From Caballeronia concitans (GTDB lineage: Bacteria; Pseudomonadota; Gammaproteobacteria; Burkholderiales; Burkholderiaceae): DNA of 64,000 nt. Below, in pieces: positions 46,248-64,000 of this stretch. The position numbers were made by a program, and so were the translations under genes. The stretch is taken from assembly GCF_001544615.1 (NCBI RefSeq), contig NZ_FCNV02000002.1, forward strand, positions 310,001 to 374,000, read 5' to 3'. The stretch's first letter is position 1; each line of letters opens with the position of its first letter. Below the pieces are notes generated by a model. The model saw only the letters and a program-made list of their open reading frames with translations, did not search any database and was not told the DNA's origin.

Positions 46248-47495
46248 TCAGTCTCGCAGCATGCACGCTTCATGCAGCGTATCGAGCCGACGCGCGGCAT
46301 CCGCGACATACGGATTCGTTTCGTCCCAGGCATAACCCGCGAGCACCGCGCAGACCAGGCGACGAATCGCCGGCGTCTGATCGGGCGTGAAGATGATGTC
46401 CTGCAGCTTGCCCGAATACCAGCGTTCGACGAACGCGCGGAACGTGTCGATGCCCTTGCGCAAGGGCGCGTCGTAGTGCGCGTGCCAGTCGATGACTTCG
46501 CCATTCAACTGACGTTCCAGCGTCTGAACCGCGAGATGCGCGGAACGCAATGCAATGGTCACGCCCGACGAGAACACGGGGTCCAGGAATTCGCCCGCAT
46601 TGCCGAGCAGCGCGTAGCCCGCGCCATGCAGCTTCTCCACGTTCGCGGAATAACCGCCGATATGCCGCACGGGCATCAGGAACGGCGCATTGCCGATCAA
46701 GCGGTTCAGCGTCGGTTCGCTTTGGATCAGCGTACGCAACTTCTCTTCGCGCTCGGCTTCATCGACATCGAGAAACGCCGCTTCGGCCACGCATCCCACG
46801 GAGGATCGGCCATTTGCGAGTGGAATCATCCAGTACCACACGTCGCGATGCTCGGGATGCACGGCTACCGTGATCTTGTTGCGATCATGCGCCTCGACGG
46901 GAATGCCGTCGCGCACATGCGTGAAGATGGCGGCGCGCGTGGCGAGGCGTGTCGGCGCTTCGAGATTCAGGAGGCGCGGCAGCACACGGCCGAAGCCGCT
47001 CGCGTCGAGCACGAAGCGCGCATGCACCTGATACTGCGTGCCGGCTTCGTCGATGACATCGAGCACGGGCGCATCGCCCGTTTTCATGGCGAGCACGGTG
47101 TGACCGAAGCGTACGTCGGCGCCCTGCTCCATCGCGCAGCGGATCAACAGATCGTCGAACACGGCGCGCTCGACCTGATACGTCGTGCCCCATCCCTTCG
47201 AATGCTTGTCGCGGAAGTCGTAAGCCGAGGCCTGATCGCGATACACGAACTGCGCGCCGTTCTTGTACTGAAAGCCCGCTTCGACGACCGCGCGCAACAT
47301 GCCCGCCTCTTCGAGATACGCCATGCTTTGCGGCAACAGACTTTCGCCGATGGAAAAGCGCGGGAAATGCTGGCGTTCGAGCACGAGCACCGAGCGCCCG
47401 GCTTTTCGCAACAGCGCGGCAGCCACCGCGCCCGACGGTCCTGCGCCGATGATGGCGACATCGACTTCGGCGTTCATCGAATCTTCTTTGTTCAT
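46248..47495 (-). CDS. Flavin-dependent halogenase-like FAD oxidoreductase at the aryl polyene border
   Basis: A 415-aa FAD protein. The dinucleotide motif GAGPSG is at 17-22 and GES at 50-52. A lysine at position 78 in GFQYKNGAQF corresponds to the catalytic lysine of flavin-dependent halogenases. The halogenase signature WxWxIP is complete at 220-225 (WYWMIP), and AGEFLDPVFSSGV matches the second flavin/halide loop. Related enzymes brominate xanthomonadin-type polyenes, whereas geranylgeranyl-reductase-like members lack WxWxIP. It is divergent from the methyltransferase and lies at the left end of the APE cluster. A halogenating role on the aryl head is inferred. Confidence 0.75.
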   Translation of the reverse strand: MNKEDSMNAEVDVAIIGAGPSGAVAAALLRKAGRSVLVLERQHFPRFSIGESLLPQSMAYLEEAGMLRAVVEAGFQYKNGAQFVYRDQASAYDFRDKHSKGWGTTYQVERAVFDDLLIRCAMEQGADVRFGHTVLAMKTGDAPVLDVIDEAGTQYQVHARFVLDASGFGRVLPRLLNLEAPTRLATRAAIFTHVRDGIPVEAHDRNKITVAVHPEHRDVWYWMIPLANGRSSVGCVAEAAFLDVDEAEREEKLRTLIQSEPTLNRLIGNAPFLMPVRHIGGYSANVEKLHGAGYALLGNAGEFLDPVFSSGVTIALRSAHLAVQTLERQLNGEVIDWHAHYDAPLRKGIDTFRAFVERWYSGKLQDIIFTPDQTPAIRRLVCAVLAGYAWDETNPYVADAARRLDTLHEACMLRD

Positions 47496-47622
47496 TCTCT
47501 ACATCCCTTCGTTGCACGCAGCAACAATTGCAAACACGACACATGCACCGCGCATCAGCGATTACAATCACACGCGGACCATGCATCAATAACATCAAAA
47601 CACTTCTTTACCGGATTCAATC

Positions 47623-48363
47623 GTGCAGTTGACCGAAACATCCAATGTGCCGTTCGTTCCCGAAACGTCTTTCGGCATCTGGTTCCTGCGCACGCATACG
47701 TGGGAACATCATGTGCTGCGTGTCGCCATCAACGACCTCGAACGCCTCATCGACTTTCCGATGCCCGCGGCACCCGTCATCGTCGATGTCGGCTGCGGAC
47801 AGGGCCTCTCGTTCCGTCTGCTTGCGCAAGCGTTCAAGCCGCAGCGCATCGTCGGTATCGATTTCCATGAGCCGTCGCTCTCGCTTGCGGCGCAATCCGC
47901 GCAAGCGTGCCGGCAACGCGCCGATACCGCCGCAACTGAAATCGAACTGCATCACGGCGACTGCGCGAATCTGCCGCTTCAGGACGCAAGCGCCGATATC
48001 GTCTTCTGTCACCAGACGTTTCATCACCTCGTCGAACAGGAACGCGCGCTCGCCGAATTCCGCCGCGTGCTCAAACCGGGCGGTGTGCTGATGTTCGCCG
48101 AATCGACGGATGCGTATATCAAGTCTTGGGTCATCCGTCTGCTGTTTCGTCATCCGATGCAGGTACAAAAGAGCGCCGACGGCTATCTCGACATGATCCG
48201 CAACGGCGGTTTCAGCTTCGGGCCGCACCACGTGTCGCTGCCTTATCTGTGGTGGAGCCGTGCGAAGGATTTCGGGCTGCTGGAGCGCATCGGCCTTTAC
48301 ACGCCGAAGCCCGGCAAGCGACGCGAAACGCTCGTCAACGTGGTCGCAAGAAAAGCATCCTGA
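47623..48363 (+). CDS. SAM-dependent methyltransferase of the aryl polyene cluster
   Basis: A 246-aa class I methyltransferase with the SAM-binding motif VIVDVGCGQGLSFRLL (about 51-66), the acidic loop GIDFHE and post-motif HHGDCANLPLQDASADIVFCHQTFHHL. APE pigments often carry an O-methylated aryl head, and a methyltransferase is a usual cluster member. It is the only plus-strand gene of the cluster and is divergent from the halogenase-like gene over a 127-base promoter region. Confidence 0.8.
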   Translation: MQLTETSNVPFVPETSFGIWFLRTHTWEHHVLRVAINDLERLIDFPMPAAPVIVDVGCGQGLSFRLLAQAFKPQRIVGIDFHEPSLSLAAQSAQACRQRADTAATEIELHHGDCANLPLQDASADIVFCHQTFHHLVEQERALAEFRRVLKPGGVLMFAESTDAYIKSWVIRLLFRHPMQVQKSADGYLDMIRNGGFSFGPHHVSLPYLWWSRAKDFGLLERIGLYTPKPGKRRETLVNVVARKAS

Positions 48364-48424: not shown

Positions 48425-48859
48425 TCAGTTCTTCAGCTTGACCACTTCCCCTTTCAACGCGACGCCCGCGATCACAGCGCCCGCGCCGCACGTGAACTCG
48501 GTTGCGCTCTCGCGCTCCACGTTCTCGTAGTTGCTCTTGATGTTGATGACCGCGTCGCCGCCTTCCTTGCGTGCACGCTCCTGCAACTCGATCACAGCCG
48601 AAAGAAACACGTGCTTGCACGCGTCCTCGTCGCTCTTGCCGAACGCGTTGGTCTTCTTGTTGGTCGCGAACACGCCGAGCGATTTCACGACCGCCGGATG
48701 CGTTTGCCCCGCGAAATACAGCGGAATGTCCTTGTCGACCTTGTCGGGTTCGCTGACCAGCGCGGACGCCACGGGATAGAACCGGATCGTATTGCGTGCG
48801 AACGCTTGCGACGAGAACAGCATTGCGACGGCTGCCGCATAAATGAAAAGACGCTTCAT
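48425..48859 (-). CDS. Small exported protein, paralogue of the next gene
   Basis: A 144-aa protein with signal peptide MKRLFIYAAAVAMLFSSQAFA. The mature domain contains VPLYFAGQ-like and DAVINIKSNYENVERESATEFTCGAG segments shared with the protein at 48887. Such proteins are often database-labelled 'excinuclease ATPase subunit', but no ATPase motif is present and the name is misleading. Function unknown; it lies at the downstream end of the APE operon. Confidence 0.75.
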   Translation of the reverse strand: MKRLFIYAAAVAMLFSSQAFARNTIRFYPVASALVSEPDKVDKDIPLYFAGQTHPAVVKSLGVFATNKKTNAFGKSDEDACKHVFLSAVIELQERARKEGGDAVINIKSNYENVERESATEFTCGAGAVIAGVALKGEVVKLKN

Positions 48860-48886: not shown

Positions 48887-49312
48887 TTATTCGACGTCCA
48901 GCTTCACGACATCGCCGCGCACGGCGAGCGTCGAGCCGTTGTTGCTCGATCCGCAGATGAACTCGGTCCCCGACGTGGTCTCCGTGTGCTGGAAGCGCGT
49001 CCTGACGTTGATGACGGCATCCGCGTGCTGCTCGCGGGCATAGTCGCGCAACTGATCGAGCGCCTTCGCGAACGCGATATTGCAGGTCGCATCCTGACCG
49101 TCCATCGTGCGGGCCACGCGCACCGCCACTTCCTTCTTGCCGAGCATCGTCTTGACGTTCGCGTGCTTCTGATCGCCGAAATACAACGTGACGTCCTTCG
49201 CGCTTTGCGTCTGCGCCGAGGGGGGCATCGGCAGCGAGCGGACCTGCGTCGTACAGCCTGCTTGCGTGATCAGCACGCCGGCCATCATTGCCAGAACGAT
49301 TTTTCTTTTCAT
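48887..49312 (-). CDS. Small lipoprotein, paralogue of the preceding one
   Basis: A 141-aa protein with a lipoprotein signal MKRKIVLAMMAGVLITQAGC (Cys20). The domain has VTLYFGDQKH, ADAVINVRTRFQHTETTSGTEFICG and a closing VRGDVVKL, closely parallel to the 48425 protein. One copy is lipidated and one is not, suggesting an outer-membrane/periplasm pair. It follows the last ketosynthase by 39 bases, probably in the same transcript. Confidence 0.75.
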   Translation of the reverse strand: MKRKIVLAMMAGVLITQAGCTTQVRSLPMPPSAQTQSAKDVTLYFGDQKHANVKTMLGKKEVAVRVARTMDGQDATCNIAFAKALDQLRDYAREQHADAVINVRTRFQHTETTSGTEFICGSSNNGSTLAVRGDVVKLDVE

Positions 49313-49351: not shown

Positions 49352-50599
49352 TTATTCGCCGACGGGCAGCGGCTGAATCTTCTCGAACATGAGGCTCGCG
49401 GAACTTCCGCCGAAACCGAACGACACCGACATCGCGCGCTCGATGCGCGCCTCGCGTGTCTCGCGCACGAGCGGCATGCCTTGCGCGAGCGGTTCGGGCG
49501 AGCCGACAGTACCCGTTCCCGCGATGAAACCGTCGCGCATCATCAGCAACGTGTAGATCGCCTCGTGCACGCCGCTTGCGCCGAGCGGATGTCCCGTCAG
49601 TCCTTTCGTCGATGAAAACGGCGGCACGTCCGCACCGAACACCGCCCGCAATGCGCGGAGTTCTTCGGCATCGCCGAGCGGCGTGGAAGGTGCGTGCGTG
49701 TTGATGTAATCGGGCGATGCGCCCGCTTCGTCGAGCGCCATGCGCATGGCCCGCGCGATGCCGTCCGCGTGCGGCGACACCATGCCCGCGCCGTCCGTGC
49801 TCTGGCCGAAGCCCGTGAGTTCCGCGTAGATGTGCGCGCCGCGTGCGAGCGCGTGGTCGAGCGCTTCGAGCACGAGCACGCCCGCACCGGAGCCGATCAC
49901 GAAGCCGTCGCGCGCGTTGTCGTAAGGACGCGAGGCTTGCCACGGCGTGTCGTTGAAGCCGCTCGACAGCGCGTGCATCGCGTCGAACATGAGCGTCATG
50001 TTGTCGTGCAGCGCTTCGCTGCCGCCCGCGAGCACGATCTGCTGGCGTCCGGTCTGGATCAACTGCATGGCCTGACCGATGGCGAGCGCGGATGTCGTGC
50101 ACGCCGACGAAGGCGAATACGCGACGCCCTCGATGCCGAACGCCTGCGCGACGTTCGCGGACGCGGTGCTGCTCATCGCCTTCGGCACCGTGTACGGCGG
50201 CGTTCTTTCGATACCGCGCGCCACCGCGATGCCGAGCGCCACGTCGTATTCGGCCATTGCGCCGACGCCCGAGCCGATCACCGCGCCGGCCTTCGGCGAA
50301 TGCAGCATGGCGTGATCGAGCCGCGCATCGTCGATGGCCTTGCGCGCCGCGTGACACGCGAAGCGCGCCGTCTCGCCCATGAAGCGTTCCAGCTTGCGAT
50401 CGAAGGGCGGCTCGTCCGCCACCGACGCCACCGCCGCCACTTGCGAGCCGAAGCCGCGCTCGCGCCACGCGTCGATGCGCGTGATGCGGGAGCGCCCCGC
50501 CTTCAACGCGGCGCTGACCGTATCGAGCGAATTGCCGAGACACGAGACGATGCCCATGCCCGTGACGACGACGCGTTGCATGCCGTGCGCCTTCTTCAT
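49352..50599 (-). CDS. Beta-ketoacyl-ACP synthase (additional KS of the APE cluster)
   Basis: A 415-aa FabB/F-type ketosynthase with the full Cys-His-His triad: Cys167 (SSACTTS), His302 (NTHAPST) and His337 (GLTGHPLG). The typical Thr of HGT is replaced by Ala in NTHAPST, as in the FabB-like subgroup. It overlaps the preceding ketosynthase by 4 bases (ATGA). The canonical APE set has one elongating and one further KS; this is a third with complete catalytic residues. It may prime or shorten the chain. Confidence 0.85.
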   Translation of the reverse strand: MKKAHGMQRVVVTGMGIVSCLGNSLDTVSAALKAGRSRITRIDAWRERGFGSQVAAVASVADEPPFDRKLERFMGETARFACHAARKAIDDARLDHAMLHSPKAGAVIGSGVGAMAEYDVALGIAVARGIERTPPYTVPKAMSSTASANVAQAFGIEGVAYSPSSACTTSALAIGQAMQLIQTGRQQIVLAGGSEALHDNMTLMFDAMHALSSGFNDTPWQASRPYDNARDGFVIGSGAGVLVLEALDHALARGAHIYAELTGFGQSTDGAGMVSPHADGIARAMRMALDEAGASPDYINTHAPSTPLGDAEELRALRAVFGADVPPFSSTKGLTGHPLGASGVHEAIYTLLMMRDGFIAGTGTVGSPEPLAQGMPLVRETREARIERAMSVSFGFGGSSASLMFEKIQPLPVGE

Positions 50600-51822
50600 C
50601 GAACGCGCCGGAAGATGAGCGACGTATTGATGCCGCCGAACGCGAAGTTGTTGCTCATCACGTATTCGGCGTCGATCGTGCGCGCCTCGCCCGCGATGTA
50701 ATCGAGCGGCGCGCAGGCGGCATCGACTTCGGTGAGATTGAGCGTCGGCGCGTACCAGTTGCGCTTCATCATCTCGATGGTCCACCACGCTTCGAGCGCA
50801 CCGCATGCGCCCAGCGTATGTCCGACGTAGCTCTTGAGCGAACTGATCGGCATGCGCTCGCCGAACGTCTGCGCGGTCGCATGACTTTCCGCGACATCGC
50901 CGCGATCCGTGGACGTGCCGTGCGCATTCACATAGGCGATGGCTTGCGGATCGAGCCGCGCGTCGTGCAACGCAAGCTGCATGGCGCGCGCCATGGTGCT
51001 GGCGGTCGGCTGCGTCATGTGCGCGCCGTCCGAGTTGCAGCCGAAGCCGACGATCTCCGCGTGAATCGTCGCGCCGCGCGCCACGGCGTGCTCGTACTCT
51101 TCGAGCACCAGCGTCGCCGCGCCCTCGCCGACGACGAGACCGTCGCGCTTCGCATCGAACGGACGCGGCGTGAGATGCGGCTCCTCGTTGCGCGTGCTCG
51201 TCGCGTAGAGCGTGTCGAACACGGCGACGGCCGGACCGGAGAGTTCTTCCGCGCCGCCCGCGAGCATCATCGTCTGCTTGCCCGTCGCGATGGCTTCGTA
51301 CGCGAAGCCGATCGCCTGACTGCCCGACGCGCACGCCGACGACGTCGGCAAGATGCGGCCCTTCAGGTCCCAGAAGAGGCCGACGTTCACGGCGGTCGTG
51401 TGCGGCATCATCTGCACGTAGCTGTTCGATGTCACATCGGTCATCGAACCGGTTCGCAGCATCGTGCCGAACGCGCGGATAGGCTCGACCGATCCCGACG
51501 ACGATCCGTACGCGACGCCCATGCGTCCGTCGCTGATCGACGCATCGCCGGCGAGGCCAGCATCGGCCAGCGCCAGTTCGCTCGCGCGCACCGCGTACAT
51601 CGAGACGATGCCCATCGACCGCGTCTTCTTGCGCGGCCACGCCGAAGGCTGTTCGAACGCGGGCAGCGGACACGCGAGGCGCGTGTGCAGCCCTTCGAAG
51701 AAGTCCCACTCCGGCATGCGGCGCACCGCGTTGCGGCCGCTTTTCAGCGCGGCTTCGATTTCATCCCAGCGGCTGCCGAGCGCCGTGACGCCGCCCATGC
51801 CCGTAACGACGACTCGCTTCAT
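50596..51822 (-). CDS. apeR: APE beta-ketoacyl-ACP synthase
   Basis: A 408-aa ketosynthase with Cys164 (TSSACASG), His301 (NAHGTST) and His335 (YVGHTLGA). In APE clusters the KS following the ketoreductase (ApeR) is thought to serve priming or early elongation. The start overlaps the ketoreductase stop (TGATG). The symbol follows Ape lettering by position and family. Confidence 0.85.
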   Translation of the reverse strand: MKRVVVTGMGGVTALGSRWDEIEAALKSGRNAVRRMPEWDFFEGLHTRLACPLPAFEQPSAWPRKKTRSMGIVSMYAVRASELALADAGLAGDASISDGRMGVAYGSSSGSVEPIRAFGTMLRTGSMTDVTSNSYVQMMPHTTAVNVGLFWDLKGRILPTSSACASGSQAIGFAYEAIATGKQTMMLAGGAEELSGPAVAVFDTLYATSTRNEEPHLTPRPFDAKRDGLVVGEGAATLVLEEYEHAVARGATIHAEIVGFGCNSDGAHMTQPTASTMARAMQLALHDARLDPQAIAYVNAHGTSTDRGDVAESHATAQTFGERMPISSLKSYVGHTLGACGALEAWWTIEMMKRNWYAPTLNLTEVDAACAPLDYIAGEARTIDAEYVMSNNFAFGGINTSLIFRRVR

Positions 51823-52547
51823 CAGATCATTCCGCCATTCACGCCGATCACCTGGCGCGTCACATAGGAAGCCGCATCCGACATGAGGAAGCTGACGACA
51901 GCGGCCACTTCGTTCGGCTGGCCGACGCGATTCATCGGCACCGTCTTCAGCGCGTGTTCGACGGGAACGTCGTCGAGCATGCCGGTATCGATCAATCCGG
52001 GCGCGACGCAATTCGCCGTGATGTTGCGCGATGCGAGTTCGACGGCGAGCGCCTTGGTCGCGCCGATCAGGCCGGCTTTCGCCGCGCTGTAGTTCACCTG
52101 TCCGCGATTGCCCATCACGCCCGACACCGACGCAATGGTCACGATGCGGCCGCCCTTCTTCGCGCGCACCATCGGCATGGTCAGCGGATGGATCACGTTG
52201 TAGAACGAATCGAGACCGGTTTCGATCACGACGTCCCAGTCTTCGTCGGTCAGTGCGGGAAACGCCGCATCACGCGTCACGCCCGCGCTGCACACGATGC
52301 CGTAATACGCGCCGTGCGCGGCGACGTCGGCTTCGAGCGCTTCACGGCACGCGGCACGGTCGCGCACGTCGAACTGCACGACGCGCGCCGCGCCGCCCTG
52401 CGCGACGATGCCCGCCGTCACCGCTTCGGCTTCGGCGCGTCCGGTGCGGCAATGCACGGTGACCGCGAAGCCGTCGGCGGCCAGTTGGTACGCAATCGCC
52501 CGGCCAATGCCGCGGCTTGCGCCGGTTACGAGGACTCGCCGGCTCAT
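51822..52547 (-). CDS. apeQ: APE 3-ketoacyl-ACP reductase (FabG type)
   Basis: A 241-aa SDR reducing 3-ketoacyl-ACP intermediates with NADPH. It has the TGASRGIG loop at 8-15, the CSAGVTRD motif, and catalytic Ser140, Tyr153 and Lys157 (YSAAK). Overlaps with ApeP upstream (ATGA) and ApeR downstream (TGATG) show tight coupling. Confidence 0.92.
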   Translation of the reverse strand: MSRRVLVTGASRGIGRAIAYQLAADGFAVTVHCRTGRAEAEAVTAGIVAQGGAARVVQFDVRDRAACREALEADVAAHGAYYGIVCSAGVTRDAAFPALTDEDWDVVIETGLDSFYNVIHPLTMPMVRAKKGGRIVTIASVSGVMGNRGQVNYSAAKAGLIGATKALAVELASRNITANCVAPGLIDTGMLDDVPVEHALKTVPMNRVGQPNEVAAVVSFLMSDAASYVTRQVIGVNGGMI

Positions 52548-53032
52548 GAACTGAAGCTCCCTTCGATGAATGTCTGAAAATCGCGTGGCTGAAACACCTT
52601 GATGACGGCTTGTGCATGACGCTCGCCGTCGTGGTCGATCGTGCATTCGTACGCGCCGTGGCCCTCTTCGCTGCGCAGCACTTCTTCCACGCGGATGGCG
52701 AGCCGCGCATCGCGCGCGAAGGCGCTCACATGCGCGCGATAACTGCGCGTGCCGAGCAGCACGCCGGGACGCGCACGGCCGCCCGCTCGCATCGCGATCA
52801 GCGCGACATGCGCGGCCACCGCCTGCGCCATCAATTCGATGCCGATCCACGCGGGCATCGCGCTGTGTTCGTCCGCGTACCACGCGTCGGCGCGCACGGT
52901 GGCGAGCGCGGTGAGCGCGGCGTCGCTGCACGCGACGACTTCGTCCACCAGCAGCATCGTGCCGCGATGAGGAATGATCGTTTCGATCGGCGCAAACGCG
53001 CCCTTGTCGTCGATGTGTGTGTGTCCGGTCAT
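52544..53032 (-). CDS. apeP: APE hot-dog dehydratase
   Basis: A 162-aa hot-dog protein with IPHRGTMLLVDEVVAC near the N-terminus and PAWIGIELMAQAVAAHVAL as the helix, the form seen in ApeP-type 3-hydroxyacyl-ACP dehydratases. It should dehydrate intermediates to build the conjugated double bonds, together with the ApeI-like domain at 59456. Six bases separate it from the ketosynthase upstream. Confidence 0.85.
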   Translation of the reverse strand: MTGHTHIDDKGAFAPIETIIPHRGTMLLVDEVVACSDAALTALATVRADAWYADEHSAMPAWIGIELMAQAVAAHVALIAMRAGGRARPGVLLGTRSYRAHVSAFARDARLAIRVEEVLRSEEGHGAYECTIDHDGERHAQAVIKVFQPRDFQTFIEGSFSS

Positions 53033-53038
53033 CGTGCG

Positions 53039-54223
53039 TCAACCCGCGAGAATGAGGCTGACATTGCTGCCGCCAAACGCGAAAGAATTGCTCATGACAT
53101 GGCGCGTGCCCGCTTCGTGCGCGAGATAGCGCGCTTCCTGAACCAGATCGAGCGCGGGCAGATCGGCGTCGGCTTCGCCGTCCCATCGATGCAGCGGCAA
53201 CGGCAAGCCGGATCGCGTGAGCGTGAGCCACGCAAAGGCGAGTTCCGTCGCGCCCGCCGCGCCGAGCAGATGCCCTGTGAACGGCTTCGTGCCGCTCGTC
53301 GGCACGCCCTCTGGAAAGACGCGCGCCATCAGATGCGCTTCCATCTCGTCGTTCTTGCGCGTGGCCGTCGCGTGCAGGTTCACGTAACCGATATCGGCGG
53401 GCGCGACGCCTGCATCCGCGAGCGCCGCGCGCAGCGCGAGTTCGCCGCCGACACCGCGCGGGTCCGGCGCGGACACGTGATGCGCATCGCTGGATTCGCC
53501 CGCGCCCGCAAGACGCACGGCGGCTTCGTCGCGCGTCATCAGGAACACGGCCGCGCCTTCGCCGATGTTGATGCCGTTGCGATTGCGGCTCATCGGATTG
53601 GTGCGTTCGATGCTCGTGGATTCGAGCGACGCGAAGCCCTGCAGCGTGAGTTCGCACAAGGTATCGACGCCGCCGACGACGATCGCATCGCACAAGTCGA
53701 GTTGCAAGAGCCGCCGCGCCGCGACGAACGCCTTGGCGCTCGACGTGCATGCCGTCGAGAGCGTGAACGCCGGACCTTGCACGTTCAGCGCGGCCGCGGC
53801 GAACGGCGCGGCCGTGCCGATCTCCATCTGGCGATAATCGAAACGCTCGGGCAAGCAGCCCGCCTTCGCGCGATGCAAAAACGCCTCTTCCGCCTCGCCG
53901 ATGCCCGACGTGCTCGTCCCCAGCACCACGCCGATGCGCGCCGAGCCGTAACGCTCGCGCGCCGCTTCGATGTCGGGGCGGATCTGTTCGAGCGCGGCGA
54001 GCAGCAGCCGGTTGTTGCGGCAATCGAAGCGTGCGACGGATGCGGGCGGCGCGATGTCGAGCGGATCGAGCACGCGGCCGACGAACGCATCGCCACGGCG
54101 CGTGCGCATCAGTCCCATGCCCGGCGATTGCGCCGAAGCCAGCGAGGTCGCGATCGAATCGACGTCGCCGCCGAGCGCATTGACCATGCCGAGCGCATGC
54201 AGATAAACAGATGGCAGCGTCAC
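53039..54223 (-). CDS. apeO: APE elongating ketosynthase
   Basis: A 394-aa ketosynthase with Cys159 (STACTSS), His284 (NLHATAT) and His318 (FTGHLLGA). ApeO forms the elongation KS with the chain-length-factor-like ApeC in the characterised type II system. It overlaps the MMPL exporter gene by 4 bases. Note Ala in place of Gly in the HATAT motif, as in relatives. Confidence 0.87.
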   Translation of the reverse strand: MTLPSVYLHALGMVNALGGDVDSIATSLASAQSPGMGLMRTRRGDAFVGRVLDPLDIAPPASVARFDCRNNRLLLAALEQIRPDIEAARERYGSARIGVVLGTSTSGIGEAEEAFLHRAKAGCLPERFDYRQMEIGTAAPFAAAALNVQGPAFTLSTACTSSAKAFVAARRLLQLDLCDAIVVGGVDTLCELTLQGFASLESTSIERTNPMSRNRNGINIGEGAAVFLMTRDEAAVRLAGAGESSDAHHVSAPDPRGVGGELALRAALADAGVAPADIGYVNLHATATRKNDEMEAHLMARVFPEGVPTSGTKPFTGHLLGAAGATELAFAWLTLTRSGLPLPLHRWDGEADADLPALDLVQEARYLAHEAGTRHVMSNSFAFGGSNVSLILAG

Positions 54224-56616
54224 GCGTGGTTTCTCCTTTCAGGCGGCATGCTCATCGGCGCGAGCAGCACCGAAACCAGGATGCCGAGCGCGAGCGTCGC
54301 GCCGAAGCTCTTCAATGCGGGCATCGCGCTCATGCCGAGCAGGCCGAACGACAACAGCGTCGTCGCCGCCGAGAGCAGCACGCCCGCCCACACCGCGCCG
54401 AGATCGGCGTCGCTGCGGAGGCACCCTTCGCGCAGGAACACGGCGTAATTCGCGCCCACGCCGAGCACGAGCATCAGCGCGAGGCAGTTGAACAGATTGA
54501 GCGGCACGCGCGCATAGCCGAATGCCGCGAGCGTCACGCCGACGGCGAGCAGCACGGGCAGCGTCGTCGCGATGCCGCCGCGCGGCCGGTAGCGCGCCAT
54601 CAGCAGGACGAGCACGAGCAGCAGCGCGCCGCCGAGCCACAGGCCGCTATCCACGCGATACGCGCCGAAGAGCTTCGACACGCTCGCCGCCTTGTCGACG
54701 AACGTCACGCCCTCGATTGCGCGCGCCGTTTCGATCAGCGCGGACTCGTTCTTCGGCGTCACGCGGCGCGGCATGACGATGGCCGCGTAGCCGCGCTGAC
54801 CGGCTGCATCGAATGCGCCGATCCACAAATGCCGATACGGCTGCGACCACGGCGCGGCGAGCCAGCGCTCGACCGTCAGCGGCGCGGCGTTCGCATGGCC
54901 GAACGAAGCGATCCACGCGTCGGCGATTTCATCGCGGAAGCCCGCGTGCAAGAGCGTCGCGCGCAAGGCGGCCGGATCGGCGAATACGTGCTGCGCGAAG
55001 AGCGCGCGCGCTTGCGCCTGACGCTGCGCCGACGGCACGAATTGCGTGACCGAGCGCCAGCCATCGACTGATCGGTCGCCTGTGAGCGCATCGAGCCGCG
55101 CGCCGAGCGCTTCGGCGCGTTCGAGCACGGCTTCTTCGGACGCGCCGCGCACCACGAAGAACTGCGCGGTGTCATCGACGCCGACTGCCGCGCGCACCTC
55201 GTTTTCCTGCGCCACGAGCGACGGATCGCGCTGGATCAGCAGATGGATGTCGTCGTCGCTCGTGAGACGCAGCCAGCCCGGCAGCGCGATCGCGACGAGC
55301 ACCGCCGCGACGAGCCACGCGCGCTTCCCGCCGATAGCGCCGCGCCAGCGTGCGAGCAGCGTCGCGGCGGACGCGAAGAGACGCCGGCGCGCGGCCTTCG
55401 GTCCCTTCACGAGCAGCGCGGGCAAGAGCGACATGACGGACGCGAACGCCACGCCGATGCCGGCCATCGCGAAACACGCGATCTGCTTGAGCGCGGGAAA
55501 CGGCACCCACGCGAGAATGGCGTAGCCGAGCAGACTCGTCGCGAGCGCGACGCTCAGCGCGGGCCGCACCGATCGCGCGCCGCTTCGCGCATCCCAGCCG
55601 CGCTGCGCGCCGAGATAGACGACGAAGTATTGGATCGAATAATCGACGGCCTCGCCGATCAGGCTCGCGCCGAACACGAGCGTCAGCAGATGCAGCTTGC
55701 CGAACACGAGCATCGTGAAGGCGAGCGCGCATACGATGCCGAGCGCCGTCGACAAGAAACCGAGCAGCAGGAGACGCGGCGAACGGAACACCCAGAGCAT
55801 CAGCAGCGCGATGCCGCACGCCGACACGACGCCGATCAGATGCACCTCGCGTTCCGACGCGCTGCGCGCCGCCTGCGCGTAAAACACCGCACCGGCGCGC
55901 GCGACCGTGGCATCGGGCCATGCCGCTTTCACCGATGCCTCCGCCTGCGCCGCCGCCGCGAGCACCGCGCGCTGCGTGGCCGATTCATACGCCGAGCCAT
56001 GCAGCGTTGTGACGACGAGCACGCTCGCGATATCGCCGCGATGCGCGACCAGCAGATTGTCTTCGAGATCGAGGCCAGACGTGGCGAGCGGCAAGTCCGA
56101 AAGCCAGTGTTCGAGCCAGCCGAAGGGATCGTCGGCGAGTTGCGTCGCGAGCGGCCCGCGCACGGGGTTGTAGATGCGCTGCATCAGCGCATCGTCGAGC
56201 GGCTGCGTGAGCGCGTCGCGGTCATCGCGCGTCAACAGCCCGAAGCGATATGGCGCATACAGTGCGCCGATCTGGGCGACGTCGAATGGCGGCAGTTCCG
56301 CCGTCACCGATGCGAACGCGCCGCTATTTTTCAGCGCCGCGCCGAAGCGTTTGGCCGCAGCCTTCGCGTGGTCGGCGTCGCGGCTCGACACGAGGAACAC
56401 GGTGCGGTCGCCGAGCGCATCGGCCAGTCGATCGACGGCTTTCTCGGCAACCGGATCCGCTTCTGTCGCGGGCAAAAGCGCGAGGAGATTCGTCTCCAGA
56501 GGCGACGGTCCTTCGAAGCGATGGACGCAATACAGCGCAGCGACGAGCGCGAGCACGAACCACGCGGCCCGTATCGCGAGAAGCGTCGCGCGGCTGCGCT
56601 GCCGTTCCTTCAGCAT
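54220..56616 (-). CDS. apeM: APE MMPL/RND-type lipid exporter
   Basis: A 798-aa inner-membrane transporter with two repeats, each of one helix, a large periplasmic loop and five helices. It starts MLKERQRSRATLLAIRAAWFVLALVAALY. The second repeat begins around residue 420 (RAWLVAAVLVAIALPGWLRL). The conserved polar segment FGASLIGEAVDYSIQYFVV fits MMPL family proton-relay helices. It should move the aryl polyene lipid across the inner membrane. The lipoprotein ApeN, which usually follows, is absent here. Confidence 0.88.
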   Translation of the reverse strand: MLKERQRSRATLLAIRAAWFVLALVAALYCVHRFEGPSPLETNLLALLPATEADPVAEKAVDRLADALGDRTVFLVSSRDADHAKAAAKRFGAALKNSGAFASVTAELPPFDVAQIGALYAPYRFGLLTRDDRDALTQPLDDALMQRIYNPVRGPLATQLADDPFGWLEHWLSDLPLATSGLDLEDNLLVAHRGDIASVLVVTTLHGSAYESATQRAVLAAAAQAEASVKAAWPDATVARAGAVFYAQAARSASEREVHLIGVVSACGIALLMLWVFRSPRLLLLGFLSTALGIVCALAFTMLVFGKLHLLTLVFGASLIGEAVDYSIQYFVVYLGAQRGWDARSGARSVRPALSVALATSLLGYAILAWVPFPALKQIACFAMAGIGVAFASVMSLLPALLVKGPKAARRRLFASAATLLARWRGAIGGKRAWLVAAVLVAIALPGWLRLTSDDDIHLLIQRDPSLVAQENEVRAAVGVDDTAQFFVVRGASEEAVLERAEALGARLDALTGDRSVDGWRSVTQFVPSAQRQAQARALFAQHVFADPAALRATLLHAGFRDEIADAWIASFGHANAAPLTVERWLAAPWSQPYRHLWIGAFDAAGQRGYAAIVMPRRVTPKNESALIETARAIEGVTFVDKAASVSKLFGAYRVDSGLWLGGALLLVLVLLMARYRPRGGIATTLPVLLAVGVTLAAFGYARVPLNLFNCLALMLVLGVGANYAVFLREGCLRSDADLGAVWAGVLLSAATTLLSFGLLGMSAMPALKSFGATLALGILVSVLLAPMSMPPERRNHA

Positions 56617-57278
56617 CACGGCGCTCCCAGCAAGCTGCGTTCGGCGGCGGGCAGTTCGTCGAGCGCTTCGCTCTTCGTGAAGTCGATCTGCGTGACGTCG
56701 CCGTTCGCGAGATCGATCCGCAAGCTCTGCAAAAACGCGCCGCCCTTCATTTGCAGCCCTTTGACGGCCTGCGCGAGCTGCGGCTGATTCGGCTTGAGGT
56801 TCAGCGTCCATTGCGATGGCGAGCCTTCTGCATCGACATCGAATTGCGAGTAAAGCGCGGACACGTCGCCGCCGAGCATGGCGCGCATCATCTTCGAGAC
56901 CTGCGCAACGCCCCGCACGCCTTGCGCGCTTCTAGTACCGACGCGCTTGCCGTTCGCATCGACTTCCGTGACGCCCGTGTCCGTGATGACGAACGTGGCC
57001 TTGTACGGCGTAAGCACACGCCAGATCACGCCGCGCTCGCGATAGAACACGAGCGTGCCCGTGCTCACGAGCGGCTGCTTCATGGCCGAAAGCGTCTGCG
57101 TCTGCGTGAATTGCGCGCGCACGCCCTTGATCTGTCCGAGCCGCGAAGCCACTTGCGATACCAGCGCCGCATCATTGCTGGCGGTCTGTGCGAGCGCAGG
57201 CGCGGCTGCATGAAGCAAGCCGGCGTTCGCCGTCAGCAGCAACGCGATGAGCGCCGTGCGCCCGCAGCGAAGTTTCAT
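56616..57278 (-). CDS. apeL: APE LolA-like periplasmic lipoprotein/lipid carrier
   Basis: A 220-aa LolA-fold protein with a signal peptide (MKLRCGRTALIALLLTANAGLLHA). VRAQFTQTQTLSAMKQPLVSTGTLVFYRERGVIWRV is the LolA-family opening. It probably ferries the pigment lipid through the periplasm. I chose the start at 57278, which overlaps the thioesterase stop (ATGA); an in-frame ATG at 57290 is possible. The stop joins apeM by TGATG. Confidence 0.88.
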   Translation of the reverse strand: MKLRCGRTALIALLLTANAGLLHAAAPALAQTASNDAALVSQVASRLGQIKGVRAQFTQTQTLSAMKQPLVSTGTLVFYRERGVIWRVLTPYKATFVITDTGVTEVDANGKRVGTRSAQGVRGVAQVSKMMRAMLGGDVSALYSQFDVDAEGSPSQWTLNLKPNQPQLAQAVKGLQMKGGAFLQSLRIDLANGDVTQIDFTKSEALDELPAAERSLLGAP

Positions 57279-57715
57279 GAACGCGACCATACGCGCTCCA
57301 GCTTCTCGAACACCACGGGCGGCGATACGAATTGCAGTTCCTGCGTGGCGGCATCGACGGCGACTTGAATGGTATAGCCCTTCGTCAGCCGGTCGCCCGT
57401 CACGCAATCGACGATTTCATACGCTATTTTCAGGCGATTTTCATATTCGAGCAGTTCCGTTCGCACGTCGATGCGCTGGCCGTATCGCGCGGGACGCACG
57501 TATTTCAGATGCGCCTCGACGATGGGCCACGCATAGCCCGACGCCAGCATGTCGCCGTAGTCATAATCGAACGCACGCAGCAGCGCGGCGCGGCCCGCCT
57601 CGAAATACTTCAGATAGTGGCCGTGCCAGCATACGTGCATGGCGTCGACATCATGAAACGGCACTTCGACGATCGCGCTCGCCGTGAGCGTCTTGTTGTT
57701 CTTCAGTTCAGCCAT
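57275..57715 (-). CDS. apeK: APE hot-dog thioesterase
   Basis: A 146-aa 4-hydroxybenzoyl-CoA-type thioesterase with the signature FHDVDAMHVCWHGHYLKYFE near residue 20, where Asp is the usual catalytic residue. It may release or edit aryl polyene acyl chains. It overlaps the glycosyltransferase/acyltransferase gene by 8 bases and apeL by 4. Confidence 0.87.
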   Translation of the reverse strand: MAELKNNKTLTASAIVEVPFHDVDAMHVCWHGHYLKYFEAGRAALLRAFDYDYGDMLASGYAWPIVEAHLKYVRPARYGQRIDVRTELLEYENRLKIAYEIVDCVTGDRLTKGYTIQVAVDAATQELQFVSPPVVFEKLERVWSRS

Positions 57716-59459
57716 GACGCGTGCTGTCGGTGAAATCGGATACGGGCGTCGGCGCGGTTTTGCCTGCGCGCGCCCAGAAATCGAAGAAATTGAACCATTG
57801 ATACGGCGCCTTGCGGCAATAGTATTCGAGACGCGACGCGTAGCGCTGCGCCCACGCCGCGATGTGCTGCGCGCGTTCGCGGCGCGGCAGCTCGATGCGA
57901 TCGGCAAATCGTTCGAAGTACAAACGATATTTCCCTGCGCGCTCTTTAAGACAGAAGAACAGATACACGGGACAACCGAGCGCGTGCGCGAGCACATACG
58001 GGCCTTGCGCGAACGGAGCGGTCGCGCCGAGGAAGCGCGCGTCGGTCGTGCGGCTGGACTCGTGCGCCGGCACGCGGTCGCCGACGATCACGAGCAGTTC
58101 GCCCGCGTCGATGCGCGCCTGCATCATCATCGACGTCTCGGGGCCGAAGTCGCTCACGTGAATCAGATGCTTCGCGAAGTCGCCATTCGCCGACGACAGC
58201 ACGCTGTTGAAGCGCTTCGCGTGCTCCGTATAGACGATGGCCGTGACCTTCGCGCGGCCGTTGCGTGCGGCGAGCGCCCGCGTCATTTCGAGGTTGCCGA
58301 GATGCGCGCCGATCACGAGCGCGCCGCGTCCGCTCGCGATGAGCGCTTCGAACGGCGCGGGGTCGTCGAACACGGCTTCGTGATCGGTGATCCGGCCGGA
58401 CCACGCCGCGAGCTTGTCGAGCCCGGACTGCGCGAACGCGAGCATCTGCCGATACGCGGAACGCCAGCCCGGACGCGGCGTGCCTTCGCCCGGCGCAACC
58501 TCGGCGAGATGCGCGAAATAACGGTGCGAAGCCGCGCGCGCATCGCGTCCCGTGAGCAGAAAATAGCCGACGACAGGATGCAGCCACAGCCCCGTGAATC
58601 GCATGCCGAACACGCGGCAACTGAGCGCGAGCAAGGACATGCCGATGCGGCTGCCGCGCTCCGCGACGCGCCACCAGCCGTGCCCGGCGTGCGCGGCTGC
58701 GGTCTTGCACGGCATCAGCTTGTGCGCGAGGAGCATCGGCGAGCGCAGCAGCATGCCGCACGCGAGCCGCGTATGACTCGCGCTGATGCGCACGTTGTCC
58801 CAGAGCACGTCGAAGTGCGATACGCCGTCCGTCGCATAGACCACGCGGGTCGGGATCGAGCGGAACGCAAGACGCCGCCAGTAGAGACGCACGAGGATTT
58901 CGATATCGAAGTCCATGCGCGTGCCGAGCCGCACGCTGTCGATCAGCGCGCAGGCGGCATCGAGCGGATAGAGGCGAAAGCCGCACATCGAATCGCGGAT
59001 AGTGAACGACAGCGTTTCGATCCACACCCAGACGTGCGTCAGATAGCGGCCATACAAGCGCGATTTCGGCACGCTTTCGTCATAGACGGGGCGGCCCAGA
59101 ATGACCGCGCCCGGCTCCGCGCGCGCCGCGTCGAGAAAGAGCGGCACGTCGTTGGCGTCGTGCTGTCCGTCGGCGTCGATCTGCAATGCGTGCGTGAAGC
59201 CCGCGCGCCGCGCCGCGCGCAAGCCCGCCATCACGGCCGCGCCCTTGCCGCCGTTCACCGGCAGACGCAGGAGCGTCATCTGCTTGCGATAGTGGCACGC
59301 GAGCTTGCCGAGCACGGCTTGCGTCGCGGCGTCGCTGCCGTCGTCGACGACGAACATCGGCAAGCCGTGAACGCTCAGGCGCGCGACGGTATCGCCGATC
59401 GCGTCCTTGTGGTTGTAAATCGGAATGACGATGCACGCCGCGATGTTCGCACCGCTCAT
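57708..59459 (-). CDS. apeJ: APE glycosyltransferase-acyltransferase fusion
   Basis: A 583-aa two-domain protein. The N-terminal GT2 glycosyltransferase (about 1-235) has VIPIYNHKDAI, VVDDGSD and the metal-binding DAD at 95-97 (QIDADGQHD). The C-terminal part (about 280-560) is LpxL/HtrB-like lipid acyltransferase with GAHLGNLEM and VGDRVPAHES. The pair fits assembly of the sugar-containing lipid anchor to which the polyene is esterified. The start overlaps the ligase gene (ATGA). Confidence 0.88.
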   Translation of the reverse strand: MSGANIAACIVIPIYNHKDAIGDTVARLSVHGLPMFVVDDGSDAATQAVLGKLACHYRKQMTLLRLPVNGGKGAAVMAGLRAARRAGFTHALQIDADGQHDANDVPLFLDAARAEPGAVILGRPVYDESVPKSRLYGRYLTHVWVWIETLSFTIRDSMCGFRLYPLDAACALIDSVRLGTRMDFDIEILVRLYWRRLAFRSIPTRVVYATDGVSHFDVLWDNVRISASHTRLACGMLLRSPMLLAHKLMPCKTAAAHAGHGWWRVAERGSRIGMSLLALSCRVFGMRFTGLWLHPVVGYFLLTGRDARAASHRYFAHLAEVAPGEGTPRPGWRSAYRQMLAFAQSGLDKLAAWSGRITDHEAVFDDPAPFEALIASGRGALVIGAHLGNLEMTRALAARNGRAKVTAIVYTEHAKRFNSVLSSANGDFAKHLIHVSDFGPETSMMMQARIDAGELLVIVGDRVPAHESSRTTDARFLGATAPFAQGPYVLAHALGCPVYLFFCLKERAGKYRLYFERFADRIELPRRERAQHIAAWAQRYASRLEYYCRKAPYQWFNFFDFWARAGKTAPTPVSDFTDSTRHG

Positions 59460-61153
59460 GCGTCCTCCCGATACACGATCGCGCCCGACGCGCATTCGCG
59501 TCCGTTCATTCGATACGCGAACTGCACGCGCCGACGCGCGGCGTCGTGCGCGAGCCGCAGTTCGAGCACCGCGCCGGGCGGCACGGGCGCCATGAACTTG
59601 AGACGATCGACGCTTTCGACCGCGCGCGCCGCCGCGACGTGTTCCGACGCGAGCCGGATCGCCCAGTCGACCTGCACGACGCCGGGCAGGATCGGCAAGC
59701 CCGGAAAGTGGCCGGCGAAATGATCGAGCGCGGGCGGCACGCGGATTTCATGGCGCAACGCGTCGCCATCGCGCGATTCCGCGAGCAACTCGAAGCCTTC
59801 GGCGCGCGGACCGAAGGCCGCTGCGACCGCCGACACCGGCAGCTTGCCGCGCGCATCGAACGGCAGCGCGATGCGAAAGCGCCAGAAGCGCGGCAACAGC
59901 ACGACGTCGAAATAAGCGGCGAGATGCCGGCGCAAGGTTTTCGCGAGCGCCACGCGGCCCGTGTCATGGAGCGCGGCGCGGCCTTCGTCCGAGAGCGCGA
60001 TCACCGCGCCGACGCGTTCGCGCGTCGTGCCCGCGAGCGGCACCACGCTGGCCTGCGCGACATACGGATGCAGCGCGAGACGCGCTTCGAGTTCGGGCAG
60101 CGAGACGCGCTTGCCGTCCAACTTGACGACGCGATCGAGGCGGCCTTGCAAGCGAAAGCGGCCGTCGTCGTCGAAGGCGATGGCGTCGTCGGTGCGATGC
60201 CAGTCGTCGTGGCCGAGATGCGGCGAGCGCACTTCGAGCGCGCCGTCATCGGCACGACGCACTTGCACGCCGCTGACCGGATACCACGCCGGCGTTTCAT
60301 TCTGTCTGCGCCACGCAATGCCGCCCGTTTCGGTGCTGCCGTAGATTTCGACGGGCGCGTCGCCGAACGCGGCCGCGTAGTCGAGGGCCGTGTCCGCCGC
60401 AAGTGGCCCACCCGACGAGAAGAACACGCGCGGCGCCGGCGTGAGCGAATCGAAACCGGCGAGTCCGGTCCAGCGCATGAGCTGCGCGGGCGACGACACC
60501 ATCGCGGTCGCGCCGCACCGTGCGATGCGCGCCTGAATCTGCTGCGGCTCCACGCAGAGCGCGCGGTCGAACGCGCGGCCCGCCGCGAGCGGCCACATCA
60601 CGCGAAACAAGAGGCCATAAATATGCCGATGCGGCACGCTCGCGAGCATCGTCGCGTCGCCGATCAGCGCGCCCCAGTCGCGTTCGAGCGTGCGCACTTC
60701 GGCGTCGAACTGGGCGAGCGTCTTGTGGATCGGCTTCGGCGCGCCGCTGCTGCCCGATGTGTAGAGCGTGAGCGGCGCGTGCGGATCGATGCGCAGCGTA
60801 AGCGTATCGAGCGCTTCGTGCGCGCGGGCGTCGGCTGCCGCGGCGACGTCGGCATCGGTGAGGACGGCGTCGTAGGCGTCGGCGAGATCGGCGAGATAGC
60901 CGGGCGCGGCACTCGCGGGGATCACCGGCGTCTTGCCGCACGCGAGGAGCGCGAACAGCGCGCAGGCGAAATCGAAGGGATCGTCGATACACAGCGCATG
61001 GCGACGTTCCTCGCCTTCGCGCAATCGAAGCGCGAGCGACGCCACGCGCGCGCGGAACGCGGCATGCGTGACCATGGCGCCGGTCGCGTCATCGTGACAG
61101 ACGGGTGTATGCGCATCGCATTGCGCGGAAAAGAGTTCGTGCAGCGCGATCAT
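59456..61153 (-). CDS. apeH: APE aryl acyl-ACP ligase fused to an ApeI-type dehydratase
   Basis: A 565-aa fusion. The N-terminal adenylate-forming ligase (about 1-440) has the ATP loop YTSGSSGAPKPIHK at 131-144 and the IYGSTETGGIAWR motif. It should load a hydroxycinnamic or hydroxybenzoic acid starter onto the ACP. The C-terminal hot-dog domain (about 454-565) has DHFAGHFPGLPILPG, with His482 as the FabZ-type catalytic His. In the well-studied clusters ApeH and ApeI are separate genes; here there is a single frame with no frameshift. Confidence 0.88.
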   Translation of the reverse strand: MIALHELFSAQCDAHTPVCHDDATGAMVTHAAFRARVASLALRLREGEERRHALCIDDPFDFACALFALLACGKTPVIPASAAPGYLADLADAYDAVLTDADVAAAADARAHEALDTLTLRIDPHAPLTLYTSGSSGAPKPIHKTLAQFDAEVRTLERDWGALIGDATMLASVPHRHIYGLLFRVMWPLAAGRAFDRALCVEPQQIQARIARCGATAMVSSPAQLMRWTGLAGFDSLTPAPRVFFSSGGPLAADTALDYAAAFGDAPVEIYGSTETGGIAWRRQNETPAWYPVSGVQVRRADDGALEVRSPHLGHDDWHRTDDAIAFDDDGRFRLQGRLDRVVKLDGKRVSLPELEARLALHPYVAQASVVPLAGTTRERVGAVIALSDEGRAALHDTGRVALAKTLRRHLAAYFDVVLLPRFWRFRIALPFDARGKLPVSAVAAAFGPRAEGFELLAESRDGDALRHEIRVPPALDHFAGHFPGLPILPGVVQVDWAIRLASEHVAAARAVESVDRLKFMAPVPPGAVLELRLAHDAARRRVQFAYRMNGRECASGAIVYREDA

Positions 61154-61788
61154 GACGCCTCCGCTTCCATCCGCCGGGCGCGCGGCAGGATCACGAGATA
61201 ACGCCACACGATCTCACCCACGAGCAGCACGCCGATCAAACCATACGCAATCGCGCCGTTGTACAGCGACCATGCCTCGCGCGGCCAGTACAGCGCGGTG
61301 TAGAGCGAGAACAGACCGTTCGCGGCGAAGAACGCGCACCAGATCTGCGTGACGCGGCGCGTGTGGCGCACGGCCGGTTCGCTCAGATCGGGCGTGCGGA
61401 TGCGCGCGAATTTTTCGATCATCGACGGACCGCGCACGAGCGTCGAACCGAATGCAATCAGCAAGCCGAGATTCACGAGAGACGGATAGATATGAAGCAG
61501 GCGCTCGCTGTCGGTCCATACGATCGCAGCGGACGCCGCGCTCAGCATGAACCCGACCGCCCAGTCGACGCGCGTGAGCGTGCGCAACGATGCCCCCACG
61601 ACGCCCGTGCCCGCGCAGCGCTGCAGCCAGATCAGCACGAACAGCAGGCAGCCGATATAGCGCGGCGCGTTCCAGAACCAGCCGCACAGAATGACGGCGG
61701 GATACGCGAGCTTGAACACGACGTTCAGCGCGAGGCCGGTCCAACTCCGATGCGCGTCGTCGCCGGTCCGGGCGGTCTGCGGCTGCAT
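61150..61788 (-). CDS. apeG: APE integral membrane protein (COG4648 type)
   Basis: A 212-aa inner-membrane protein with about six helices: LNVVFKLAYPAVILCGW, CLLFVLIW, WAVGFMLSAASAAIVW, LVNLGLLIAFGSTLV, WCAFFAANGLFSLY and GAIAYGLIGVLLVGEIVW. It is a constant member of APE clusters. Its molecular role is unknown, possibly in lipid anchoring or translocation. It overlaps the ligase gene (ATGA) and the ACP gene (TGATG). Confidence 0.85.
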   Translation of the reverse strand: MQPQTARTGDDAHRSWTGLALNVVFKLAYPAVILCGWFWNAPRYIGCLLFVLIWLQRCAGTGVVGASLRTLTRVDWAVGFMLSAASAAIVWTDSERLLHIYPSLVNLGLLIAFGSTLVRGPSMIEKFARIRTPDLSEPAVRHTRRVTQIWCAFFAANGLFSLYTALYWPREAWSLYNGAIAYGLIGVLLVGEIVWRYLVILPRARRMEAEAS

Positions 61789-62045
61789 CAGTCCTGCGCT
61801 GCCAGCAGCGATTCGACAGCGGCGATCACGTCGCCGACCGTGCGCACGGACTTGAACTCCTCGGGCTTGATGCGGCGGCCCGTCATCTCCTGCAGCTTGA
61901 TCGCGAGATCGACGGCATCGATGCTGTCCAGATCGAGTTCTTCGAACAGATGCGCTTGCGGCGTCACGCGCTCCGGCTCGATGCCGAAGTTCTCTTTGAA
62001 GATCGCGCGGATGCGCTCAAGGATTTCGATGTCGGTCACGGTCAT
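61788..62045 (-). CDS. apeF: APE acyl carrier protein 2
   Basis: An 85-aa ACP with the phosphopantetheine serine at Ser41 in DLDSIDAVDLAI. It overlaps the first ACP by 4 bases. One ACP is thought to carry the growing chain and the other to support initiation or transfer; which is which cannot be read from sequence. Confidence 0.93.
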   Translation of the reverse strand: MTVTDIEILERIRAIFKENFGIEPERVTPQAHLFEELDLDSIDAVDLAIKLQEMTGRRIKPEEFKSVRTVGDVIAAVESLLAAQD

Positions 62046-62341
62046 TCCCCTTTCGTTGCAGTGTCGCCCGATGCGCGCGCGGCCTCGCGCTGGCTCGCGA
62101 CGAGTTCGGCGAGCGTGTTGATCGAACGGAAGTGCTCGCGCGTGCGCTCGTCGTTGGCGGCGATCGTCAATTGATAGTGTTTGCGCAGCACGATGCCGAT
62201 TTCGAGCGCGTCGATGGAGTCGAGACCGACGCCATCGGTGGAAAAGAGCGGCGCATCGTCGTCGATGTCGGCGGGCGTCAGGTCTTCGAGATCGAGTGCT
62301 TCGATCAGAAGCTGTTTGATTTCAAGCTTTAAAGAATCCAT
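62042..62341 (-). CDS. apeE: APE acyl carrier protein 1
   Basis: A 99-aa ACP with phosphopantetheine Ser42 in GLDSIDALEIG. It has a longer C-terminal tail than its neighbour. It overlaps the acyltransferase gene by 20 bases and the second ACP by 4. Confidence 0.92.
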   Translation of the reverse strand: MDSLKLEIKQLLIEALDLEDLTPADIDDDAPLFSTDGVGLDSIDALEIGIVLRKHYQLTIAANDERTREHFRSINTLAELVASQREAARASGDTATKGE

Positions 62342-63819: not shown

Positions 63820-64000
63820 ATCGGTGTTCGCGTTTTGGAAACTTTTAGCACCCGGCAGGACGACCGACGACTGCACGACAAGGCGCGCTCGGTCCGGCGG
63901 TGGCCCACCCGATACTTGCTCAATAGGTAAGTGAACCGTCGAATTAACGGCACGAGACAGCAACTATTTAGCGATAAGACGCAAAACGCGGCTCGGCACG

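Follow-up and report, generated by a model that had tools for sequence, protein, structure and literature searches.

An aryl polyene (APE) cluster in Caballeronia concitans carries at its border a gene for a halogenase-like flavoprotein, FDH-A, which we consider, with a probability of roughly 0.6, to be a FAD-dependent halogenase of carrier-bound aromatic substrates, with an optional tailoring role in aryl polyene biosynthesis. The observation of the gene is sound, and its product is plausible but predicted. The legend to a published figure 5 already mentions that halogenase genes are conserved close to the APE ketosynthase pair in selected genomes, so the association as such was known. What is new here is the survival of FDH-A without its own synthase, alone or with the ketoreductase FabG-A, and it is the complementarity between two clusters that deserves pursuit. 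A more tentative proposal, held at somewhat less than even confidence, is that FDH-A and FabG-A form a portable tailoring unit common to two aryl polyene pathways. Several Burkholderiaceae lineages would have lost the E. coli-type cluster and kept FDH-A, with FabG-A where the xanthomonadin-type cluster is without a ketoreductase, so that an unlinked second cluster would yield a halogenated aryl polyene in trans.

FDH-A lies in the window, by which we mean the whole stretch of 64,000 nucleotides that was analysed. The APE cluster spans from the FDH-A edge to about 64 kb, which bears out the earlier placement of the gene at a cluster border in a Burkholderiaceae host, here a Caballeronia. The features are given below with position, strand and description; named loci refer throughout to the best 80 of 330 stretches with an FDH-A relative.

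46248..47495, minus: FDH-A, FAD-dependent halogenase-like flavoprotein of the APE cluster, 415 aa (from profile, structure matches, tree and model)
47496..47622, no strand: gap of 127 bp separating FDH-A from the divergent methyltransferase gene, counted from listed start to listed start (from coordinates)
47623..48363, plus: SAM-dependent methyltransferase (Methyltransf_11, Pfam), divergent from FDH-A, earliest start
48425..48859, minus: small protein with a YbjQ match under the cut-off; in 63 of 80 named loci (best 80 of 330)
48887..49312, minus: small protein, lipoprotein-like by its N-terminus; in 67 of 80 named loci (best 80 of 330)
49352..50581, minus: ketosynthase KSa (FabB-like), approximate start
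50596..51837, minus: ketosynthase KSb (PRK09116 over cut-off; ApeR-like by position), approximate start
51822..52544, minus: 3-ketoacyl-ACP reductase FabG-A (FabG2 equivalog over cut-off; ApeQ-like by position), approximate start
52544..53032, minus: dehydratase with a weak FabZ match under the cut-off; ApeP-like by position
53039..54223, minus: ketosynthase KSc (PRK09185 over cut-off; ApeO-like by position), marker of the type-A cluster
54220..56811, minus: MMPL/RND exporter (ApeM-like), start unsettled
56616..57407, minus: LolA-like carrier, start unsettled
57275..57700, minus: YbgC/4HBT thioesterase (ApeK-like), approximate start
57708..59495, minus: glycosyltransferase-2 / lipid A acyltransferase-like fusion (ApeJ-like)
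59456..61207, minus: fusion of AMP ligase and ApeI-like dehydratase
61150..61788, minus: membrane protein without a family match (ApeG-like by position)
61788..62045, minus: acyl carrier protein-like, from reading of the sequence only
62042..62341, minus: phosphopantetheine-binding protein (PRK09184 over cut-off)
62322..63308, minus: acyltransferase (ApeD-like), start unsettled
63100..63963, minus: Ketoacyl-synt_2 domain protein (ApeC-like by position), final APE gene before the type VI secretion genes

The E. coli-type APE gene set is present together, with ketosynthases, ketoreductase, dehydratase, AMP ligase/ApeI, carrier proteins, acyltransferases, MMPL, LolA and thioesterase. The divergent methyltransferase, 127 bp away between starts, had been recognized by the sequence-only reading and accompanies FDH-A in 67 of the 80 named loci (best 80 of 330). 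The APE cluster of E. coli CFT073 (apeA-R) likewise contains a methyltransferase, ketosynthases, acyltransferases, a thioesterase, an RND transporter and Lol-like proteins, whereas the main text of the paper that describes it mentions neither FAD nor flavin, unlike the FDH-A-bearing cluster of the window; the same text describes the E. coli head group as methylated and names halogenation for xanthomonadin (PMC8253772). No flavin reductase was found among the cluster ORFs scanned, and no polysaccharide deacetylase, which together with a type-B halogenase-like gene would mark a cluster of the xanthomonadin/arcuflavin type, among the window ORFs scanned. Directly after the APE cluster follow type VI secretion genes (TssJ, TssG, TssF, ImpA-like), which lie just outside the window (L099 2728-8003, G000:C12). 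A 637-aa flavin hydroxylase encoded at 44166-46079 on the minus strand has the 3-hydroxybenzoate hydroxylase 2dkh as its best solved match (787 bits), and together with a nearby MFS transporter (41316-42608) it probably belongs to aromatic catabolism, outside the APE cluster. This phenol hydroxylase neighbor was rejected as a member of the system, being seen in 0 of the 80 named loci (best 80 of 330).

The FDH-A reading frame starts with ATG in the ORF list of the window and encodes the motifs GAGPSG (17-22), K78, WYWMIP (220-225) and FLDPVFSSG (303-311). It scores 87.9 bits with the Pfam profile Trp_halogenase (PF04820), the cut-off being 21, and its GC3 is 0.77 versus 0.61 in an antiparallel ORF of 532 aa. 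Because of the Pfam match, a full-length match to the solved structure 3nix, and relatives encoded in 330 stretches of the genome collection, we do not regard FDH-A as a chance ORF, and the earlier identification of the gene with its Lys78, its WxWxIP motif and its halide/flavin loop stands. The top named locus is in C. grimmiae (92%, among the best 80 of 330), and a record of Caballeronia sp. M1242 holds a relative at 94%. The NCBIfam equivalog CmlS gave 156.9 bits, below its cut-off of 900, and models for geranylgeranyl reductase, QhpG, GoxB and LodB gave 80-121 bits, each under its own cut-off.

In a sequence search of solved structures, 3nix came first over its full length (345 bits), followed at 122-148 bits by Mpy16, ChlB4, CndH, FasV, PltA, a Bmp2 mutant and CmlS. 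An AlphaFold2 model of FDH-A, built from 24 sequences and with a mean pLDDT of 81.7, was compared with the PDB using Foldseek. Ranks 1-6 were occupied by 3nix and ranks 7-20 by halogenase entries, with p-hydroxybenzoate hydroxylase appearing from rank 21, interspersed with more halogenases; RadH was likewise among the neighbors ranked before the hydroxybenzoate hydroxylases in the sequence and fold searches. 3nix is a structural genomics entry described as a "flavoprotein/dehydrogenase" from Cytophaga hutchinsonii (Bacteroidota), and although its host belongs to another phylum it is a full-length homolog with 41-42% identity, a TM score of 0.87-0.88 to the model and the same motifs. PltA, Mpy16, ChlB4 and Bmp2 are halogenases using carrier-bound substrates. 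They share the fold, and the two that were aligned, Mpy16 and ChlB4, also have the lysine, WxWxIP and FxxPxxSxG, whereas all four are 24-29% identical to FDH-A in the fold search and belong to other pathways, and Mpy16 and ChlB4 fall on a separate branch of the tree. The predicted fold of FDH-A is of the halogenase type, and profile, motifs and nearest folds place the protein in the Trp_halogenase family.

The catalytic lysine, WxWxIP and the FxxPxxSxG loop are hallmarks of halogenases. We aligned 148 distinct relatives and five solved structures, among them 129 type-A sequences, the window protein included, and 17 sequences of a second type, type B. K78, W220, W222, I224, P225, S309 and G311 are invariant in 129/129 distinct type-A and 17/17 type-B sequences, many of the 129 being close relatives, with identities to the window protein down to 42%. 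F303 is kept in 128 of the 129 and replaced by V in the remaining one, and the halogenase-like motifs are also kept in 3nix in this alignment.

Type B shares its Pfam family and motifs with FDH-A and also occurs in an APE-type cluster, but it differs in being 30-36% identical and longer (435-446 aa in 17 sequences), in belonging to another cluster type and in forming a separate branch. Within the genus, a second KSc homolog (47-50%) was found in 20 of 58 genomes, and the same 20 carry a second halogenase-like protein with 32-34% identity, encoded usually 10-14 kb from the second KSc (3 kb in G017, on another contig in G019). The second cluster at L188 contains a polysaccharide deacetylase, MMPL, AMP ligase, FabG, glycosyltransferase-2 and acyltransferase, which recur in other type-B regions, and an annotated cluster of this kind in Azospirillum ramasamyi adds MipA and a chain length factor. 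The gene content of these two clusters resembles the table given for the arcuflavin cluster of Azoarcus (PMC3949708), and type B is equated with ArcA by this gene content rather than by sequence. In a tree of 74 rows, which is midpoint-rooted and for which the program warns of long branches, a branch with 100/100 support separates type A and 3nix from the remaining four solved halogenases, type B and a third type. The window host (G000) has the first, type-A, cluster only, with one KSc and one FDH match. By sequence, FDH-A is therefore not nearest to the halogenase-like protein of xanthomonadin-type clusters: type B, a separate branch that is about 33% identical and an extra in some Caballeronia, is the paralog found in xanthomonadin/arcuflavin-type clusters, and the xanthomonadin analogy for FDH-A is for this reason indirect. 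Two halogenase-like genes, H and XanB1, are named for the Xanthomonas cluster in the text of PMC3838355. The third halogenase-like type is represented by L200 8173-9471 and L201 from 6940 (in G004 and G015); these proteins are 29-32% identical to FDH-A with intact motifs, and their genes have no matches to the APE query set nearby.

FDH-A seldom occurs in genomes without APE genes. In the genus sample of 58 genomes, with FDH-A called at ≥72% and KSc at ≥66% identity, both were present in exactly the same 26 genomes, including that of the window. In the order sample (300 genomes), KSb, called at ≥50% identity with the next matches at ≤43%, was found in 38 genomes, FDH-A in 24 and both in 22; in the two genomes with FDH-A and no KSb (G156, G294), FDH-A is accompanied by other APE genes. 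For the 369 genomes of the class sample the numbers were 32, 18 and 14, and the four genomes with FDH-A and no KSb comprise one with other APE genes adjacent (G625), two that are fragmented or incomplete (G477, G591) and one whose protein is 36% identical and groups with type B (G638). All such co-occurrence counts ignore the relatedness of the genomes, and since each genome of the order, class and family samples had 4-7 candidates scored, second copies may be missed. KSb genomes without FDH-A number 16 of 38 in the order and 18 of 32 in the class. In beta- and gammaproteobacteria alike, FDH-A is thus an optional but common component of E. coli-type APE clusters, as expected for a tailoring enzyme, and not peculiar to the cluster of the window.

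KSc or the exporter adjoins FDH-A in 36 of 40 wider regions, the exceptions being L164, L176, L178 (a 4.9-kb contig) and L180 (G638). L164 (G258:C1:360200-380100) holds a second FDH-A-like copy, 48% identical, and shows no other APE match in its stretch; the genome (G258) also has a copy beside KSc. In Pseudoalteromonas, FDH-A is flanked by a transporter and by genes for DUF3261 and a ketosynthase. In a 3.9-Mb genome of the same genus as the window, the APE cluster has decayed (L202, G050:C106): FDH-A is in pieces with stops, KSa and KSb matches remain with a methyltransferase in two pieces, and there is no KSc match.

If FDH-A is a halogenase, it would attach chlorine or bromine to a yellow membrane pigment. 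A general reductase of the cell would supply it with reduced flavin, which with O2 and halide would give HOCl or HOBr. Lys78 would then hand the halogen to the electron-rich (hydroxy)aryl head group of an ACP-bound starter or polyene. We infer this chemistry, together with substrate, halide, position and timing, and a carrier-bound substrate is proposed because the nearest characterized relatives use such substrates. The parts of the aryl polyene literature covered here describe no product of a type-A cluster with FDH-A, and halogenation of the Caballeronia pigment by this enzyme is a plausible prediction. The strongest counter-evidence is arcuflavin, which according to the text of PMC3949708 is C41H52O4 and non-halogenated, though the Azoarcus cluster has an annotated "halogenase", arcA; a halogenase gene in an APE cluster is therefore no guarantee of a halogenated pigment. 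The low CmlS score, the matches to geranylgeranyl-reductase and QhpG models and the lack of a flavin reductase among the cluster ORFs scanned also count against the halogenase reading. Furthermore, the characterized halogenases group with type B and not with type A in the midpoint-rooted tree with its long branches.

This deep separation, the halogen-free arcuflavin and the matches of non-halogenating flavoprotein models under their cut-offs would also be accounted for if FDH-A were an APE flavin monooxygenase or oxidase that hydroxylates or oxidizes the aryl head or the polyene and has lost the halogenation activity. We consider this unlikely, if still the alternative to be taken most seriously, because the lysine and both motifs are kept, but for the one V at position 303, throughout the type-A sequences and 3nix, from Bacteroidota to Burkholderiaceae. 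Another explanation is that FDH-A halogenates only an aryl starter or a small phenol outside the pigment, or acts only with bromide, such that the pigment is normally plain. This would agree with arcuflavin and with the non-brominated pigments found even in xanthomonads, as indicated by the title of Jenkins and Starr (1982), cited in PMC3949708, but it is quite improbable given the tight linkage of FDH-A to polyene synthase and export genes.

Some copies of FDH-A have outlived their synthase. In seven of the 80 named loci (best 80 of 330) no ketosynthase lies beside FDH-A, and with all candidates scored these seven genomes have a second KSc in 7/7, a type-A KSc in 0/7 and a type-B match in 0/7. 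FDH-A was found in 99 of the 259 genomes of the family sample, and inspection of the neighborhoods placed 80 in linkage with a type-A cluster and left 19 unlinked; of these 19, all have a second KSc and none a type-B match. The 19 include five of the seven named genomes, giving 21 lone-copy genomes in total, and G834 adds a 22nd lone copy on top of its linked one. A second APE-type ketosynthase is present and a second halogenase match absent in 21/21, the second KSc of G754 and G818 being called by E-value alone. A missing KSc was rejected as sufficient evidence that a copy is lone: both G871 and G738 carry type-A clusters (L222 and L228) and were counted as linked, L222 missing the KSc match only, and G858 was scored as linked across a contig break.

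In a tree of 120 sequences including the 22 lone copies, the lone label needs nine changes, at least seven of them forced by well-supported branches; loss of the synthase is thus frequent. The dN/dS values were 0.03-0.16 for pairs of lone copies (n=12) versus 0.04-0.11 for linked pairs (n=8), part of the pair divergence possibly predating the loss of the synthase. FDH-A is under purifying selection, lone copies included. Among the 160 family genomes without FDH-A, a KSc match of either kind was found in 58, and of these 37 lack any halogenase-like match and the other 21 match type B or the third type. APE clusters of either kind are therefore often without a halogenase, and the second cluster needs none, which counts against the halogenase reading.

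The cluster-A ketoreductase FabG-A is found beside 17 of the 22 lone FDH-A copies and is absent beside five. After seeing the pattern in three genomes, we noted the hypothesis that FabG-A is kept where the xanthomonadin-type cluster has lost FabG-B. Second clusters were examined for 15 of the 17 pair genomes (all except G818 and G834), and FabG-B is absent in 15/15; for the five copies without FabG-A the cluster was examined in four (all except G754), and FabG-B is present in 4/4. Five further clusters are without FabG-B (L244, L245, L256, L257 and L261), and the five genomes all have FabG-A elsewhere (79-84%), that of G864 being a partial match in an open frame of 157 aa. L210 is a cluster without FabG-B in a genome whose cluster A has FabG-A. 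Clusters without FabG-B thus coincide with FabG-A in the genome in 21/21 cases, while FabG-B is present in 33 other examined clusters, with the incomplete L255 left out of the count. In G921, G754 and G721 the only FabG-A match is a 52% protein, which is FabG-B in G921 and G721 and, we infer, in G754 likewise. There is no strict rule for the retention of FDH-A, since G793 and G864 retain FabG-A although no FDH-A was detected there, and G739, G757 and G740 have FabG-A in trans plus a type-B halogenase of their own.

We conclude that FabG-A probably works in trans for the xanthomonadin-type cluster, and that FDH-A, kept alongside it, may serve that cluster too. The complementarity between the clusters suggests such service in trans and ties FDH-A to aryl polyene tailoring; its likeliest target would be the aryl head of a carrier-bound intermediate shared by the two pathways. 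Retention together with a ketoreductase could also hint at another redox role for FDH-A. Ralstonia solanacearum has both pig-like and ape-like clusters, and AcpP4, a carrier protein of its ape-like cluster, restored xanthomonadin in a Xanthomonas mutant, as described in the text of PMC9542644; parts of one pathway can therefore serve another. That the lone copies are mere remnants of the decay of cluster A and uninformative on function is very improbable, for although frequent synthase loss, the broken FDH-A of G050 and the 37 of 58 KSc-positive genomes that manage without any halogenase-like match would fit, the lone pairs have dN/dS values near those of linked pairs, all 19 family genomes with only a lone copy have a second KSc and no type-B match, and FabG-A is retained according to need.

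Should FDH-A be a true halogenase, membrane pigments that carry halogen may be much more widespread than one would suppose from the xanthomonads. With an arrangement in trans, pigment prediction from one cluster can err, as the ketoreductase and the halogenase may sit elsewhere in the genome.

Relatives of FDH-A also appear outside these samples. A plasmid gene of Aureispira (L181 10821-12074) encodes a protein 42% identical to FDH-A. Genes for a trifunctional MMPL/acyltransferase/methyltransferase protein, an AMP-binding protein and a C45 peptidase lie in the same stretch, which may represent a flexirubin-like cluster. Relatives in the plasmid collection (H8-H10, H21, H22) have 54% identity in Acinetobacter baumannii and 50% in Neisseria gonorrhoeae records, the latter in two pieces covering 90%; one of these relatives is annotated as an oxidoreductase and the others have no listed gene.
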